A stretch of 64,000 nucleotides of DNA from Methanomassiliicoccus sp. (lineage in GTDB: Archaea > Thermoplasmatota > Thermoplasmata > Methanomassiliicoccales > Methanomassiliicoccaceae), in assembly GCA_033485155.1 (NCBI GenBank), contig JAWQJJ010000004.1:62001-126000 (forward strand), in the 5' to 3' direction. Below the pieces are notes generated by a model. The model had not been told where the DNA came from. It did no database searches and saw only the letters and a program-made list of their open reading frames with translations. A program made the translations under genes and the position numbers. This document shows, one piece after another, positions 29,881-54,661 of this stretch (the stretch's first letter is position 1; each line of letters begins with the position of its first letter).

Positions 29881-32286
29881 TTACATCTCGACGGTGCTGG
29901 TGCCGTCCTCCAGCTCTTTGATAGTTATAACGTTGCTCATGAGGTCCTTGGTATCGTCGATGTGGCTGATGATAATCATCTGATGGAACTGTCCCTCCAG
30001 CCGGTTGAGGGTGGCCATGATGTTCCTTTTTCGCACCTGGTCCTGGGAGCCGAAGATCTCGTCCAGGATGAGGAAGTTGATGTCATTGCCCGAGCGGTCG
30101 GCGAGCACCCGGGAGATGGCTAATCTCAAGCTCAAGTTGGCGAGATCGCTCTCCCCGCCGGAGAACCGGGAGAGAGGATACTTGTCTCGTCCGTCGTAGA
30201 TCTGCATCTCATAGTCCTCGTTCAGCTCGATCCCTCCGTACCTCGAGTCGGTCAGGTCCGTGAAGAGCTGGGACGATACCTCGGACAGCGTGGGCACGAC
30301 CCGCTCCATCACGTTCTGCTTGAAGTCGGCCATGACCTTCTCCAACGTAGCCAGGCGCTCCACCGCCCCAGCCCGCTCGGCGATCTCCCTCTCCATCGCC
30401 GCCACCTCCTCCAGCGCACTCTTTCGGTCTGCCACCCTGGCAGTGGCCAGCTCCAGCGCGGAGGCCCGGCGGGAGACCTCAGTGTAGGCGGCCTCGCGGG
30501 CATGGAAAGCGCGGTCGTATGCTTCCGACGCCGCCTTGAGATCGCCCTCGGTGTATCCGACCGCAGCGAGCTCAGCTTTGGCCCTATCAAGTTCCGCGCC
30601 CTTGGAGGCCAGGGAGTGAGTGATATCCTCGAACCTTGCCTCCAGCTGAGGGAGTCGGGCCCCCTCCCCGCGCAGGACCTTGCATCTCTCGGCCAGGGGA
30701 CGGAGCGAGGTGATGCGGTCCTTGACCTCGCGATAGGTCCGCTGGTCGAAGGTCACCTCGCCGATGCCGTCCAGCACCGCTTGCGCTTCCTGAAGCTCAT
30801 GCTCCAACGCGGCCGATCGTTGCTGCAGCGTCTCCACTGTCGCTGACAGCCGCCCGTGTTCGATGACCCTCTCTCCCAGCGCCCTCTTGCGTGCCTCCAG
30901 GGCGCCCTTGCGCCGGACCGCCAGGTCCAGCTTTGCCTTTGTCGAGCGATGCTCCTCCTCCAGCTCATCGGCTCGCCTTGACAGCTCGTTCCCCTCCTCG
31001 CCGAGCTTGGACAGCAGGTGATGGTGATGGTCTCCCAGCTGACGCCCGCAGGTCGGGCAGGAGCTCTCTGGCCCCAGACTGGAAATCTCCGAGGTTTTTG
31101 CCGCCAGGCCGGCAGCCTCCTTCCTGAGTCGGGCGATCTCCGTGCCGGTGATGCCGGTCCGTTCCCGGCAGGCCATGACCTCGCCCTCGACCTCCTCGAG
31201 GTTCGCGGTCACCCGGTCCAGGCTCTCCTGGGCGTCCCTGAGCTTAGCGAGCTCCTCGCTAGCACTGGCCAACGTCTCGCCGGTGCGCCGAACCTCCTCC
31301 CGGACCCGGTTGAGGTTCTGGGCGGCGCCCTTCCGCTGTTCGAAGCGGGCTTGCTCCGCCTCCATGCCCTCCCTCGTCGCCATCGCCTCCTCCAGCTCCC
31401 GCTCCCGAGCTTCCAGGTCGGGCAGTGAGGCCAGGCGGTCCCGCAGGGCCCTCAGATCCCGCTCGGTCATCGCCGCGGTGCGCTGGACCTCCTCGATCTC
31501 CTTGCGTTTCTCCAGCACCCGGCGCTCGACCCGGCGGTAGTCCTCCTCCTTGAGCGCGGTCCACTCCCTCCGCCCCCTGGCCGCCTCCAGCTCTTTGACC
31601 CTGGTCGCGGTCAGGGCGTTGGCATCTTCCAGTCCGGCTCTCAAATCGGCGACGCTGACCTCCAGCTGCCCGATCTCCTCGGTCAGCACCTCCTTTCTGC
31701 TCCGGCGGTCGGGGGTCAGCAGCCTCTCGTTGTGGGACTGCAGCAGCAGCCTTCCATCCTTGCCGTCCCGTCGGATGCTGTCCAGCACCTCCTGCAGGAC
31801 GTCCAGCTGCAGCATGCGCATGATGAGCTTCTTGCGCTCACCAGGGGTCAGCACCGATAGCGCGGAGAGGTCCTTCTGCCTGGCGAAGACCGAGATGAAG
31901 AAGGCCTGATGGTCCATGCCCAGGATCTCTTCGACCTTCTGGCTGACGGCCCGCTCGCTCTTGGCGATGATGCCCCCGCCGGCGGTGAGCTCGGCCTCAG
32001 CTTTCAGGTCCTTGCCCTTCAGGCTGCGCCGCAAGCGATACTGGATCCCTCCCAGCTCGAACTCCAGCTCTACTGAGCACTCCTCGTGGGCACCGGCCCC
32101 GCTGCGCTTAATCCCTTCCCTGCCGTTGCGGGACTCGCTCTTGTTGCCGTACAAAGCCCAAGCGATCGCCTCTATCAGCGTGCTCTTCCCCGCGCCGTTG
32201 GGGCCCATTATGCCGATGATGCCGTCAGGGAACTCGATACGGGCCTCCCGGAACCGCCGGTAGTTATGCAGCTCGAGGTACCTCAG
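29881..32286 (-). CDS. rad50: DNA double-strand break repair ATPase Rad50 (non-ATG start)
   Basis: An SMC-like repair ATPase with Walker A GPNGAGKSTLIEAIAW, two long coiled coils around the zinc hook SCPTCGRQLGD (near the middle), signature RFSGGESDLANLSLRLAISR, Walker B NFLILDEIFGSQD and D-loop. Rad50 needs about 30 residues before Walker A. They are present in frame (YLELHNYRRFREARIEFPDG), yet from TAA 32310-32308 to ATG 32208 there is no ATG, GTG or TTG. The best-placed codon is CTG 32286, giving 801 residues, with GGAAGG six bases before it; ATC 32292 is another option. It overlaps the mre11 stop, so it is translationally coupled to it. The complex tethers and resects broken DNA ends. Confidence 0.93.
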   Translation of the reverse strand: MRYLELHNYRRFREARIEFPDGIIGIMGPNGAGKSTLIEAIAWALYGNKSESRNGREGIKRSGAGAHEECSVELEFELGGIQYRLRRSLKGKDLKAEAELTAGGGIIAKSERAVSQKVEEILGMDHQAFFISVFARQKDLSALSVLTPGERKKLIMRMLQLDVLQEVLDSIRRDGKDGRLLLQSHNERLLTPDRRSRKEVLTEEIGQLEVSVADLRAGLEDANALTATRVKELEAARGRREWTALKEEDYRRVERRVLEKRKEIEEVQRTAAMTERDLRALRDRLASLPDLEARERELEEAMATREGMEAEQARFEQRKGAAQNLNRVREEVRRTGETLASASEELAKLRDAQESLDRVTANLEEVEGEVMACRERTGITGTEIARLRKEAAGLAAKTSEISSLGPESSCPTCGRQLGDHHHHLLSKLGEEGNELSRRADELEEEHRSTKAKLDLAVRRKGALEARKRALGERVIEHGRLSATVETLQQRSAALEHELQEAQAVLDGIGEVTFDQRTYREVKDRITSLRPLAERCKVLRGEGARLPQLEARFEDITHSLASKGAELDRAKAELAAVGYTEGDLKAASEAYDRAFHAREAAYTEVSRRASALELATARVADRKSALEEVAAMEREIAERAGAVERLATLEKVMADFKQNVMERVVPTLSEVSSQLFTDLTDSRYGGIELNEDYEMQIYDGRDKYPLSRFSGGESDLANLSLRLAISRVLADRSGNDINFLILDEIFGSQDQVRKRNIMATLNRLEGQFHQMIIISHIDDTKDLMSNVITIKELEDGTSTVEM

Positions 32287-33413
32287 CCTGATCCTTCCAG
32301 CCCCCTTTTAAGATAGTCCAGACCTTGCAATTTGAGGGCGTCCTTGTTCACGTTACCGATGGGATAGCGATCAAGGAAGTGAACGAACTCCTCCTCCAGC
32401 GAGCTCAGGGTGGCCGAGCCGGATTGGACCGAGATGTTATCCTGCACCACCTCGAACTTCGGCTCGAAGTGCACCGCCCTAGACGCCAGCTCCCGGAGCC
32501 GCTTGAAGTCCACCGTGACGTAGGACGTGCGGGGCACGCGCTTAACCACCAGGCGGACGATCTTGCCCTCGAGGTCCCGGGCCAGCAGCGACTCCAGCTG
32601 CGCCCTCAGGGACGCGGGGTCCAGGTCGTGGGCATCCACCGGGCCGAGGTCCACCATCGGCCGCACCGGCAGCTCGATGAACTCCCTCCTCCCGGAGCTC
32701 AGGTCGAGGTGGACGAAGCCCTTGGGTTGGCCGGCCTCGGCGAAGGAGAAGTGCTCGGTCGAGCCGGCGTAGGACGCGTTACGCGTGACATCGTACCGCT
32801 GGTGATAGTGGCCGAGGGCGATGTAGTCGAGGTCTTCCTTCAAGAAGCAACTCTCCACCAGCTGCTCATTGAATTCGTTCATCCGGAACTCGCTGAAGCC
32901 CACGATCCCGGCGTGCAGCATGGCCACATTGTATCTCGTATCCGGGCACCGCTCGATGAGCGGCAACTGCTCCTTGAACCCCTCTCCTTCGGAGTGGGGG
33001 ACTGCGTGCACCGTGAGGTCGCCGATGACGATGCGCTCATACGCTCCCCGGTATACGGGATAGATGTGGTCAAGGTGCTCGAACAGCCGGAAGGCGCTGC
33101 CCGTCTCCCTCAGCCTTGGGGTAGAATGGTTCCCGGCGATGATGACCGTGGGGATGCCCGCCTCGGACAGGCGGACCAGCTGCTCGAGGGCGAAGCTCAG
33201 CGCACGGTTGGACGGGCGGACGGTGTCGAAGAGATCGCCGCTGTGCAGCACCGCGTCCGGACGGAGGTCCAGTACGCGGTCCACGAACGTCTCGAACGAA
33301 CGGTAGGTGTCGACCTCCCGCTGGTTCAAGCCCCGATAAGGGCCGTCGTCCTCGCACACCCTGCGGTACGCGGAGAATCCGAGATGGGTGTCCGCGACAT
33401 GGACGATCCTCAG
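32283..33413 (-). CDS. mre11: DNA double-strand break repair nuclease Mre11 (CTG start)
   Basis: A 376-residue Mre11 nuclease of the calcineurin-like phosphoesterase fold, partner of Rad50. Metal-site motifs in order: VHVADTHLGFSAYRR (I), LHSGDLFD (II), IIAGNHSTPR (III), MLHAG (IV) and IALGHYHQR (V). Motif I begins right after an in-frame TAG, and the only codon at the expected methionine is CTG 33413, with GGAGGAGTGA ending about six bases before it. The first canonical start, GTG 33359, would remove motif I. Alternatively, ATG 33440 is in frame upstream through the TAG (nine codons), which would require readthrough. It is followed by rad50. Confidence 0.93.
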   Translation of the reverse strand: MRIVHVADTHLGFSAYRRVCEDDGPYRGLNQREVDTYRSFETFVDRVLDLRPDAVLHSGDLFDTVRPSNRALSFALEQLVRLSEAGIPTVIIAGNHSTPRLRETGSAFRLFEHLDHIYPVYRGAYERIVIGDLTVHAVPHSEGEGFKEQLPLIERCPDTRYNVAMLHAGIVGFSEFRMNEFNEQLVESCFLKEDLDYIALGHYHQRYDVTRNASYAGSTEHFSFAEAGQPKGFVHLDLSSGRREFIELPVRPMVDLGPVDAHDLDPASLRAQLESLLARDLEGKIVRLVVKRVPRTSYVTVDFKRLRELASRAVHFEPKFEVVQDNISVQSGSATLSSLEEEFVHFLDRYPIGNVNKDALKLQGLDYLKRGLEGSG

Positions 33414-33715
33414 CTACTCACTCCTCCAGGGATAAGGCATGCCGCTCCGATTCCCCATGACAAAGCCCCTTCTTTACATTTCCTTCTGCCACCCCCATTC
33501 TGAGAGCGTCCCGCCGATTGCGGGACGACCGTCCCCATGAGGGCCAATGCTTCCGGACCGCGGTCGCTGGACGGGGCCAGCGTTCACATGTCGTGGTGAA
33601 AAGGTGTGGGCAGGGGCATCCTTCGACGGCAGGCCCTTCGTGCCTTTTCCATGAAGGCTACGTTAGCCTAATATACGGTATCGGGGTATGGGGTATATGG
33701 GAGCGAGGTGACATC
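33414..33715. other. Divergent mre11 / csoR promoter region
   Basis: About 300 bases separate two divergent genes. The mre11 side shows a weak AT-rich TGTAAAG (minus strand, near 33470) and the GGAGGAG ribosome site. The csoR side shows TAATATA and the GGGGTAT repeats described separately. The reading frame through 33518-33715 upstream of csoR is not coding-like. Confidence 0.4.
33668..33700 (+). promoter_or_regulatory. csoR promoter with tandem GGGGTAT operator candidate
   Basis: CCTAATATACGG contains the TATA box, about 44 bases before TTG 33716. Just downstream, at the expected transcription start, GGGGTATGGGGTATATGG carries two GGGGTAT repeats and a partial third. GC-rich blocks with TACCC/GGGTA are typical of CsoR-family operators, so autoregulation is likely. 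The exact site is inference. Confidence 0.45.
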
Positions 33716-52724: not shown

Positions 52725-53870
52725 ATGTCCGAGTTCGATGTCAAGATCGAGAAGGGAGAATATCTCGGGAAACCGGTGGCCATCGTCCGCCTTCCCGGCA
52801 GGTACAGGGTGCTGAGCTCCACCATCATGGGCGGAGGGTTCGCGGAGACCGATACGCTGTTCATCCTGGAGGTGAAGATGGGGTATGACAACTGCAGGCC
52901 GGAGGACGACCTGGAGGAGGTCCGCCGCCGTTACTCGCTGCCAGAGGACTGCGTGGGATTCATGACCGCAGCGCATGTCGACAAGGTGTTCACGATCAAG
53001 CGCGAGGAGTTCAACGGCAAGAAAACCATCGCCGTGGTGACTGCCGGAGTGACCAATGCAGTGTACGCCGGGGAGCGGCTTCCGCAGGAGATCATCGATC
53101 TATTGCCCAAGCACGTCGCCGGTACCATCAACATCATTGTCATCGTGGACCAGCCGATCCAGGACTGCGGGCTGGCCGGCGGGTTCATCACCGTCACCGA
53201 GGCCAAGTCCGCCGCCCTCAGGGACATGAAGGTCAAGGGGACGGGAACGACCAGCGATGCGGTGGCCATCGCCTGCCCCATCGGGCAGGGGGACAAGTAC
53301 TGTGGCCCGGCCACCGATGTCGGCATCGCCGTCGCCCGCGCTGTCCGCGAGGGTGTGGCCGAGTCGATCCGCAAGTGGAACGGCAACAACGGCAAGGCGA
53401 AGGACTTCGGATACCGCCTCGACGAACTAGGGATAGGTCCGGAGGAGATGTGGGCGGCGGCCTATGAGCTTTACATCCCCGACCCGACCTGGGACCTCGA
53501 GCGCATCAAGGCGATGTTCATGCGCCACCTCGTGGTGCTGAGGAAGGACATCAACGTCAACGCCATGATCTACGCGGCCATCAACATGGAGGAGATGGGC
53601 AACCGCGACGAGATGTTCGGCCTGGACCAGGGAAGATTCCTCCAGGACCCCGTGCACCTGGTGGCCGATGAATTGTTGGGCATCGCCCTGGCAGAGTACG
53701 TCGCGGGTACCAAAGGCCTCTTCGAGTACGTGCGGTACGATAAGAAGAAACCGGGAATCCTGGGGACCCTCGGCCCGTTCCTCGATGACATCGTCGCCTC
53801 GCTCATCGGTTCCATCATGTCCCGCATATATACCGAGCTGTTGGAAGGTGAGGATAAATTAGGGTCGTAG
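52725..53870 (+). CDS. CbiZ-CobZ fusion: adenosylcobinamide amidohydrolase and alpha-ribazole phosphatase
   Basis: A 381-residue two-domain protein. Residues about 1-225 are CbiZ, which cleaves the aminopropanol side chain of salvaged corrinoids (LSSTIMGGGFAETDTL, FMTAAHVDKV, VTAGVTNAVYAGE, GTGTTSDAVAIACPIG). Residues about 235-381 resemble CobZ, the archaeal alpha-ribazole phosphatase related to PgpA (DELGIGPEEMWAAAYEL, GRFLQDPVHLVADELLGIAL, PFLDDIVASLIGSIMSRIY). The fusion links salvage hydrolysis with the last step of loop assembly. It starts four bases after cbiB and ends in TAG within cobS. Confidence 0.9.
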   Translation: MSEFDVKIEKGEYLGKPVAIVRLPGRYRVLSSTIMGGGFAETDTLFILEVKMGYDNCRPEDDLEEVRRRYSLPEDCVGFMTAAHVDKVFTIKREEFNGKKTIAVVTAGVTNAVYAGERLPQEIIDLLPKHVAGTINIIVIVDQPIQDCGLAGGFITVTEAKSAALRDMKVKGTGTTSDAVAIACPIGQGDKYCGPATDVGIAVARAVREGVAESIRKWNGNNGKAKDFGYRLDELGIGPEEMWAAAYELYIPDPTWDLERIKAMFMRHLVVLRKDINVNAMIYAAINMEEMGNRDEMFGLDQGRFLQDPVHLVADELLGIALAEYVAGTKGLFEYVRYDKKKPGILGTLGPFLDDIVASLIGSIMSRIYTELLEGEDKLGS

Positions 53871-54661
53871 GCGCGGTCAAGTCGCTCTTCTCCCTGTTCA
53901 CCGTCATCCCGGTGAACATCACCGGCGAGGATATCGACGAGCTATCGCGCCATTTCTGGCTCACCCCCCTCGTGGGACTGTTCTACGGTGTCGTGGCCGG
54001 CGGGCTCTTCCTCCTGCTGACCAAGGCCCTCGACGGCTTGGTGTCGGCGGTGCTCGTCGTTCTCGTCGTCCACGGCCTCAACCGCTTCCTGCACTTTGAC
54101 GGCCTGATCGACCTCGGGGACGGCCTCATTGCCACCGGCCCGCACGAGAAGAAGCTGGCGGCGATGAAGGACACCAGAGTAGGGGCCGGAGGCGTGGGCT
54201 TTGGGATCATGTTCACCATGCTGACGATCGCCTCCCTGTCCTTCGTCAGCGAGTCCAGCATTCCGGTGATGCTGTTCTTCCTCCCCCTGGCCATGGAGGT
54301 GCTGGCCAAGAACGCGCTGGTCACGGTGGCCGCTCTGGGCGAGCCGAGGGAGGGCCTGGGCAGCCCGTTCGTGCGAAACACTCCGGAGAGGCATGCCTTG
54401 TACTCCGCCGTGCTCTCATTCGTCCTGCTGACCGTTGTCTTTTTAATGGCATACTCATGGTCTAACCCTTACGGCCTGGTGCTGATCGCCCTTCTGATCA
54501 TCACAAGTTCGGCGGTGGGGGTGGCGGTGGCCGGTCAGGGACGGCGGAGCTTCGGGTGCGTGAACGGGGACATGATGGGGGCGACCAACGAGCTGGCCAA
54601 GCCCGCGGTCCTGCTGGTGGGCATGATGGGGGCGGTCATATTCCTGTTGCCGTTCTATTAA
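53858..54661 (+). CDS. cobS: Cobalamin synthase CobS (probable ATT start)
   Basis: A membrane enzyme of the cobalamin (5'-phosphate) synthase family, joining adenosylcobinamide-GDP with alpha-ribazole or its phosphate. It has HFWLTPLVGLFYGVVAGGLF, LHFDGLIDLGDGL, KLAAMKDTRVGAGGVGFGIM and GCVNGDMMGATNELAKPA. The usual first helix and IPV motif are encoded in frame (AVKSLFSLFTVIPV), but between TAA 53855-53857 and GTG 53912 no ATG, GTG or TTG occurs. ATT 53858, with GGTGAGGAT just before it, gives 267 residues. GTG 53912 would cut this helix and leave 249. Confidence 0.92.
   Translation: MRVVGAVKSLFSLFTVIPVNITGEDIDELSRHFWLTPLVGLFYGVVAGGLFLLLTKALDGLVSAVLVVLVVHGLNRFLHFDGLIDLGDGLIATGPHEKKLAAMKDTRVGAGGVGFGIMFTMLTIASLSFVSESSIPVMLFFLPLAMEVLAKNALVTVAALGEPREGLGSPFVRNTPERHALYSAVLSFVLLTVVFLMAYSWSNPYGLVLIALLIITSSAVGVAVAGQGRRSFGCVNGDMMGATNELAKPAVLLVGMMGAVIFLLPFY

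Follow-up and report, generated by a model that had tools for sequence, protein, structure and literature searches.

In E. coli, infC reportedly starts at AUU and is autoregulated by the initiation factor IF3 (Butler et al. 1987, as cited in PMC9845219). For archaea, AUG, GUG and UUG are generally regarded as the start codons (e.g. PMC7531240). An ATC start has been inferred by orthologue alignment for the L12ae gene of Staphylothermus marinus (Smar_1096; PMC2678158), and an ATT start for the AtubA gene of Kariarchaeaceae from the fold, the alignment and the spacing to the ribosome-binding site (PMC13394414). Termination-reinitiation at overlapping genes has been shown in Haloferax and in E. 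coli, and genes encoding subunits of one complex are enriched in short overlaps (PMC6728339, PMC10666635). The locus described here is the mre11-rad50 gene pair of a Methanomassiliicoccus species (order Methanomassiliicoccales). It lies in a stretch of 64,000 nucleotides (nt), which was analysed as a whole and is called the window; coordinates refer to it. The two genes are arranged head-to-tail on the minus strand of contig C4 of a 2.8-Mb genome. Sequence comparison indicates that translation of rad50 begins at an AUC codon which lies within the 3' end of mre11, the two genes forming a translationally coupled pair; the probability of this reading is put at about 0.87. A literature search of partial coverage found no earlier report of a start at AUC conserved across an order.

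The start codon of rad50

The features which define the start of rad50 are as follows.

29881..32292, minus strand: rad50 coding sequence, with the predicted start at ATC 32292-32290; Pfam AAA_23/SMC_N.
32290..32292, minus strand: putative ATC initiator of rad50, two codons upstream of CTG 32286 and invariant in 28 genomes.
32284..32286, minus strand: CTG proposed as the start in an earlier note on this DNA; third codon of rad50, in a variable column.
32301..32305, minus strand: GGGGG, the presumed Shine-Dalgarno sequence of rad50, inside mre11 and 8 nt ahead of the ATC; it can pair with the 16S 3' end GGATCACCTCCT.
32283..32292, minus strand: overlap of the rad50 start and the mre11 stop, ATCAGGCTGA, 10 nt; the ancestral form is the 4-nt ATGA.

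The rad50 product matches PF13476 (E 6e-22) and PF02463 (E 1e-19), as expected of a split ABC ATPase with an SMC-like C-terminal half, and both the Walker A motif (GPNGAGKST) and the CPxC hook (CPTCG) are present. When the ATC is counted as residue 1, residue 3 onward pairs with residue 3 onward of Pyrococcus Rad50 (1ii8/1f2t). The earlier note had stated that there is no ATG, GTG or TTG between TAA 32310-32308 and ATG 32208, and this is confirmed in the sequence. ATG 32208 is the next canonical codon in frame; it lies past the first beta strands and just ahead of Walker A (M-GPNGAGKST), rather than inside the motif as the note had it.

The column of the start codon was read in 64 genomes, comprising 40 Methanomassiliicoccales and 24 other Thermoplasmata. 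Only start-capable codons are found in it: ATC in 28 genomes, ATG in 30, GTG in four and TTG in two. Within the order the codon is ATC in 28 genomes, ATG in 11 and TTG in one; outside the order it is ATG in 19, GTG in four and TTG in one. The predicted AUC start spans the order, mostly next to mre11 genes which have ATG, GTG or TTG. A GG(A/G)GG motif is found 7-8 nt upstream of the ATC in 27/28 ATC genomes; the sequence is GGAGG in G006, G048, G060 and G144, and GGAGA in G007.

The overlap changes together with the codon. It is 10 nt long in 28/28 ATC genomes and 4 nt long (ATGA or GTGA) in nearly all genomes with ATG or GTG. In two sister species, G054 and G050, the overlap is also 10 nt long, and a canonical codon (ATG and TTG, respectively) stands exactly at the ATC column. 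This is the strongest single argument that the ATC column is the start in the 10-nt architecture.

Two other readings of the junction were weighed. The earlier note held CTG 32286 to be the best-placed start of rad50, where CTGA would overlap the mre11 stop in the manner of ATGA. In its favour, this codon is near-cognate, lies within a 4-nt overlap and in the window is 6 nt downstream of GGAAGG. Alignment of orthologues, which the note itself suggested as a check, gives a different picture: among the 40 genomes of the order codon 3 is CTG in 26, TTG in four, CTA in three, ATA in three, TTA in two and CTC in two, which is the pattern of an ordinary Leu/Ile position and not of a start codon. Nor is GGAAGG conserved (GGGACA in G007, GGAACA in G019), and all outgroups have their start column two codons upstream, at the position of the ATC, which is the better placed of the two. 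CTG was rejected as the start because its column varies in relatives, and it is now an improbable candidate. Both genes had also been said to begin CTG-AGG; AGG does follow both CTG codons, and CTG 32286-32284 is in frame, but in rad50 this CTG is codon 3. The second reading dispenses with a rad50 start in the ATC genomes and supposes an Mre11-Rad50 fusion, produced when ribosomes shift by -1 on a run of G late in mre11. In the -1 frame no stop codon separates this G run from rad50, and most genomes keep the run; however, in the five genomes with GGAGG or GGAGA listed above it is broken, so that its Shine-Dalgarno character stays while its slipperiness is lost. Sister species with the same overlap moreover have ATG or TTG in place of the ATC. 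The fusion was rejected on the loss of slipperiness and is very improbable.

The AUC start would have arisen from the ancestral overlap. A single G-to-C change (ATGAGGCTGA to ATCAGGCTGA, ATGA to ATCA) would account for both the new start and the shift in the overlap. It would abolish the ATG of rad50 and the TGA of mre11 at once; Mre11 would then be two residues longer, and the next TGA or TAA would serve as the mre11 stop. On a tree of 63 rows, ATC needs three changes, and the starred branches force two. The distribution is consistent with one origin close to the base of the order, after which some lineages went back to ATG or TTG. Genus g6 forms a clade of nine tree genomes with ATG and a 4-nt overlap, nested within ATC lineages, which suggests a return from AUC to AUG. 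Branch lengths inside the ATC lineages total about 6 amino-acid changes per column, which argues for long retention of the ATC.

The A of the ATC is the third base of an mre11 codon; in every genome with ATC this codon is GGA, GAA or CAA, and the A has persisted across changes between the Gly, Glu and Gln codons. Most of these mre11 genes use A as the third base in a minority of codons. The naive probability of an A in all 27 genomes checked is ~1e-20, a value without correction for kinship, the true figure being larger.

The start of mre11 and the region upstream

The mre11 gene appears to have a near-cognate start of its own.

32283..33413, minus strand: mre11 coding sequence, 376 codons plus TGA, with the predicted start at CTG 33413-33411, based on Pfam Metallophos and the orthologue column.
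33423..33427, minus strand: GGAGG, the presumed Shine-Dalgarno sequence of mre11, 9 nt ahead of the CTG; it is complementary to the 16S 3' end of the same genome, GGATCACCTCCT.
33414..33440, minus strand: open reading frame (ORF) from ATG to TAG, in frame with mre11; a possible tiny upstream ORF or, less favoured, a start read through by pyrrolysine (Pyl) insertion.

The earlier note had observed a CTG at the expected methionine of Mre11, just after an in-frame TAG, and both are present (CTG 33413-33411, TAG 33416-33414). The match to PF00149 (calcineurin-like phosphoesterase fold; E 8e-17) begins at residue 1. When the protein is read from the CTG, residue 2 pairs with residue 2 of Pyrococcus Mre11 (1ii7), and the CTG occupies the Met1 position of other archaeal Mre11 proteins. 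The N-terminal D-x-H motif (ADTHLG) is retained only with translation from the CTG or close by. GTG 33359 falls past the DTHLG motif, which bears out the claim that the next canonical start would lose metal motif I; no canonical alternative which retains this motif was found in the window.

Alignment of orthologues had been proposed as a check on this start also. The column was read in six genomes of the genus (G000, G001, G002, G003, G005 and G006, G000 being this genome): it is CTG in four (G000, G005, G002, G003), ATA in one (G006) and ATG in one (G001). All genomes read elsewhere in the order have ATG, GTG or TTG there. The use of CTG 33413 as the mre11 initiator is thus well supported by the alignment, and by the same columns a near-cognate start of mre11 occurs in one genus only. 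It should be noted that CTG or ATA is less forced in three of these genomes because canonical codons are close by; in G005 and G006 a GTG follows three codons after the start column, and G002 has an in-frame GTG and TTG upstream. In family f2 of the order, the order search found distant nuclease matches only and nothing close to the Mre11 and Rad50 of this genome.

The ORF which begins at ATG 33440 was not mentioned in the earlier note. It is complete, with eight codons (MPYPWRSE), and its TAG directly abuts the mre11 CTG.

The ORF allows two further accounts of mre11 initiation. Ribosomes could reach mre11 by reinitiation after MPYPWRSE, the CTG being used by coupled ribosomes only; the ORF runs from ATG 33440 to TAG 33414 and leaves zero distance to the CTG. 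Against this, the same form is not present in genus relatives with a CTG or ATA start, and short ORFs occur by chance, so this account is unlikely. Alternatively, mre11 could start at ATG 33440, which is in frame, if the TAG ahead of the CTG were decoded as pyrrolysine. The genome encodes PylS, as expected for the order. However, TAG is a frequent stop here (32/151 genes on the contig), the ATG-to-TAG arrangement is not common to the genus relatives, and homology to Mre11 starts at the CTG. In M. luminyensis, TAG makes up 11.3% of stops, and there are no predicted Pyl proteins besides methylamine methyltransferases (PMC4153887). Decoding as pyrrolysine is accordingly a most improbable explanation. 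It might also be asked if errors of sequencing or assembly had turned ATG into the CTG of mre11 and the ATC of rad50, each of which is one base from ATG. Both codons are found in several independent assemblies, the CTG in four (G000, G005, G002, G003) and the ATC in 28 genomes, and error can practically be dismissed for this reason.

Proposed coupling and dosage

The mre11-rad50 junction fits a termination-reinitiation pair, with a stop/start overlap of 10 nt and GGGGG or GGAGG at 7-8 nt. In the proposed mechanism mre11 would be the lead gene, initiating (in this genus only) at CUG behind its own Shine-Dalgarno sequence. Ribosomes completing mre11 would terminate 7 nt downstream of the AUC, and the small subunit would be held near the mre11 stop by Shine-Dalgarno pairing. 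The initiator Met-tRNA would then start on AUC through a tolerated mispairing at the third position, and Rad50 would therefore still begin with Met. The weak AUC would probably lower the amount of Rad50 per Mre11 and tie Rad50 output to the translation of mre11. A search for a special initiator tRNA gave 40 tRNA-like matches; those scanned with ARAGORN were mostly ordinary and included one tRNA-Met (CAT), and several were probably intron-bearing. The predicted mRNA structure at the mre11 and rad50 starts was not stronger than in shuffled sequences.

The earlier note had suggested that adjacent weak CTG starts keep the doses of the two subunits low and matched. This fails, as rad50 has ATC rather than CTG at its start column and the near-cognate start of mre11 is found in one genus only. 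A milder form, in which a weak initiator restricts Rad50 relative to Mre11, is possible; that limiting Rad50 is the purpose of the weak start is a guess.

Several points weigh against initiation at AUC in a coupled pair. In E. coli, initiation from AUC is inefficient. The T and C of the ATC are the first two bases of an mre11 Ser codon (TCN), and this overlapping codon may partly account for the presence of AUC, and never AUU, AUA or ACG, at rad50. Initiation at AUU in E. coli is quoted at about 0.3% of that at AUG (PMC10666635). The archaeal factor aIF1 discriminates against non-canonical starts (PMC6237735), and aIF1 is encoded in this genome. Loss of aIF1 was considered as a cause of relaxed initiation and rejected, since the factor is present.

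Other candidate near-cognate starts and comparison with known systems

A further case in the window concerns cobS.

53858..54661, plus strand: cobS, with the predicted start at ATT 53858-53860 directly after an in-frame TAA; Pfam CobS.

The cobS start overlaps the stop of the upstream cbiZ (TAG 53868-53870) by 13 nt. Its column was read in 30 genomes and is near-cognate in 28: ATT in 14 (all of this family), ATA in three, ATC in three and ACG in eight. The remaining two are G050 and G018, the latter with an ATG nearby. A few genomes have a canonical codon slightly downstream, such as the GTG two codons on in G036.

Two contigs of this genome were compared with congeners in a survey for further near-cognate starts. 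Forced non-canonical starts numbered five candidates in about 284 genes, against 0-1 in 87 genes in a pair from a different family of the class, taken as a control; on these counts the two are not distinguishable, and an excess across the lineage is not shown. Weaker candidates include an MFS transporter (G000:C3, about 176.9-178.1 kb, minus strand), the conserved N terminus of which begins at a CTG behind a Shine-Dalgarno sequence, with CTG also in G003. In a response regulator (G000:C3, about 68.1-69.2 kb, minus strand), GGAGG is followed by ATC AAG AAG at the expected Met, and G003 has GTT. A cbiB homologue (G006:C35, about 164406, plus strand) has ACG at a position which is ATG in this genome and GTG in G002.

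These cases suggest that, at some coupled genes, these archaea retain inefficient start signals over long evolutionary times. A broader claim stands at about even odds: that Methanomassiliicoccales keep, over order-level time, genes with AUC, AUU, AUA, ACG or CUG as the sole start (rad50, cobS and, in this genus, mre11), most of them at overlaps where coupled ribosomes would routinely initiate, with the weak start as a brake on output. Gene callers restricted to AUG, GUG and UUG would misplace the starts of rad50 and cobS in this order. The long-kept AUC, together with the sister species which have gone back to AUG or UUG, amounts to a natural experiment on the strictness of start-codon choice by archaeal ribosomes at overlaps; it also bears on whether weak starts persist for the dosage of a repair complex.

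The rad50 start has partial counterparts among the systems introduced above. Like the predicted start of rad50, that of infC is a near-cognate AUN codon on a normal mRNA, and in infC weak initiation serves control. The rad50 case differs in being archaeal, in its predicted AUC and in that the gene serves DNA repair and overlaps its neighbour; autoregulation is reported for infC. The L12ae gene of S. marinus has the same kind of proposed archaeal ATC start, but it is one gene in one genome, whereas the ATC of rad50 recurs in 28 genomes of an order, in which sister species have canonical codons and the overlap changes along with the codon. AtubA likewise has a proposed archaeal near-cognate start; it is a single case and lies outside any conserved gene overlap. 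The closest parallel to the junction itself is termination-reinitiation at ATGA in Haloferax and E. coli, where stop and start overlap, the genes often encode subunits of a complex and an internal Shine-Dalgarno sequence is usually present, as at mre11-rad50. Those overlaps are 4 or 1 nt long, whereas that of mre11-rad50 is 10 nt and its predicted start is AUC.

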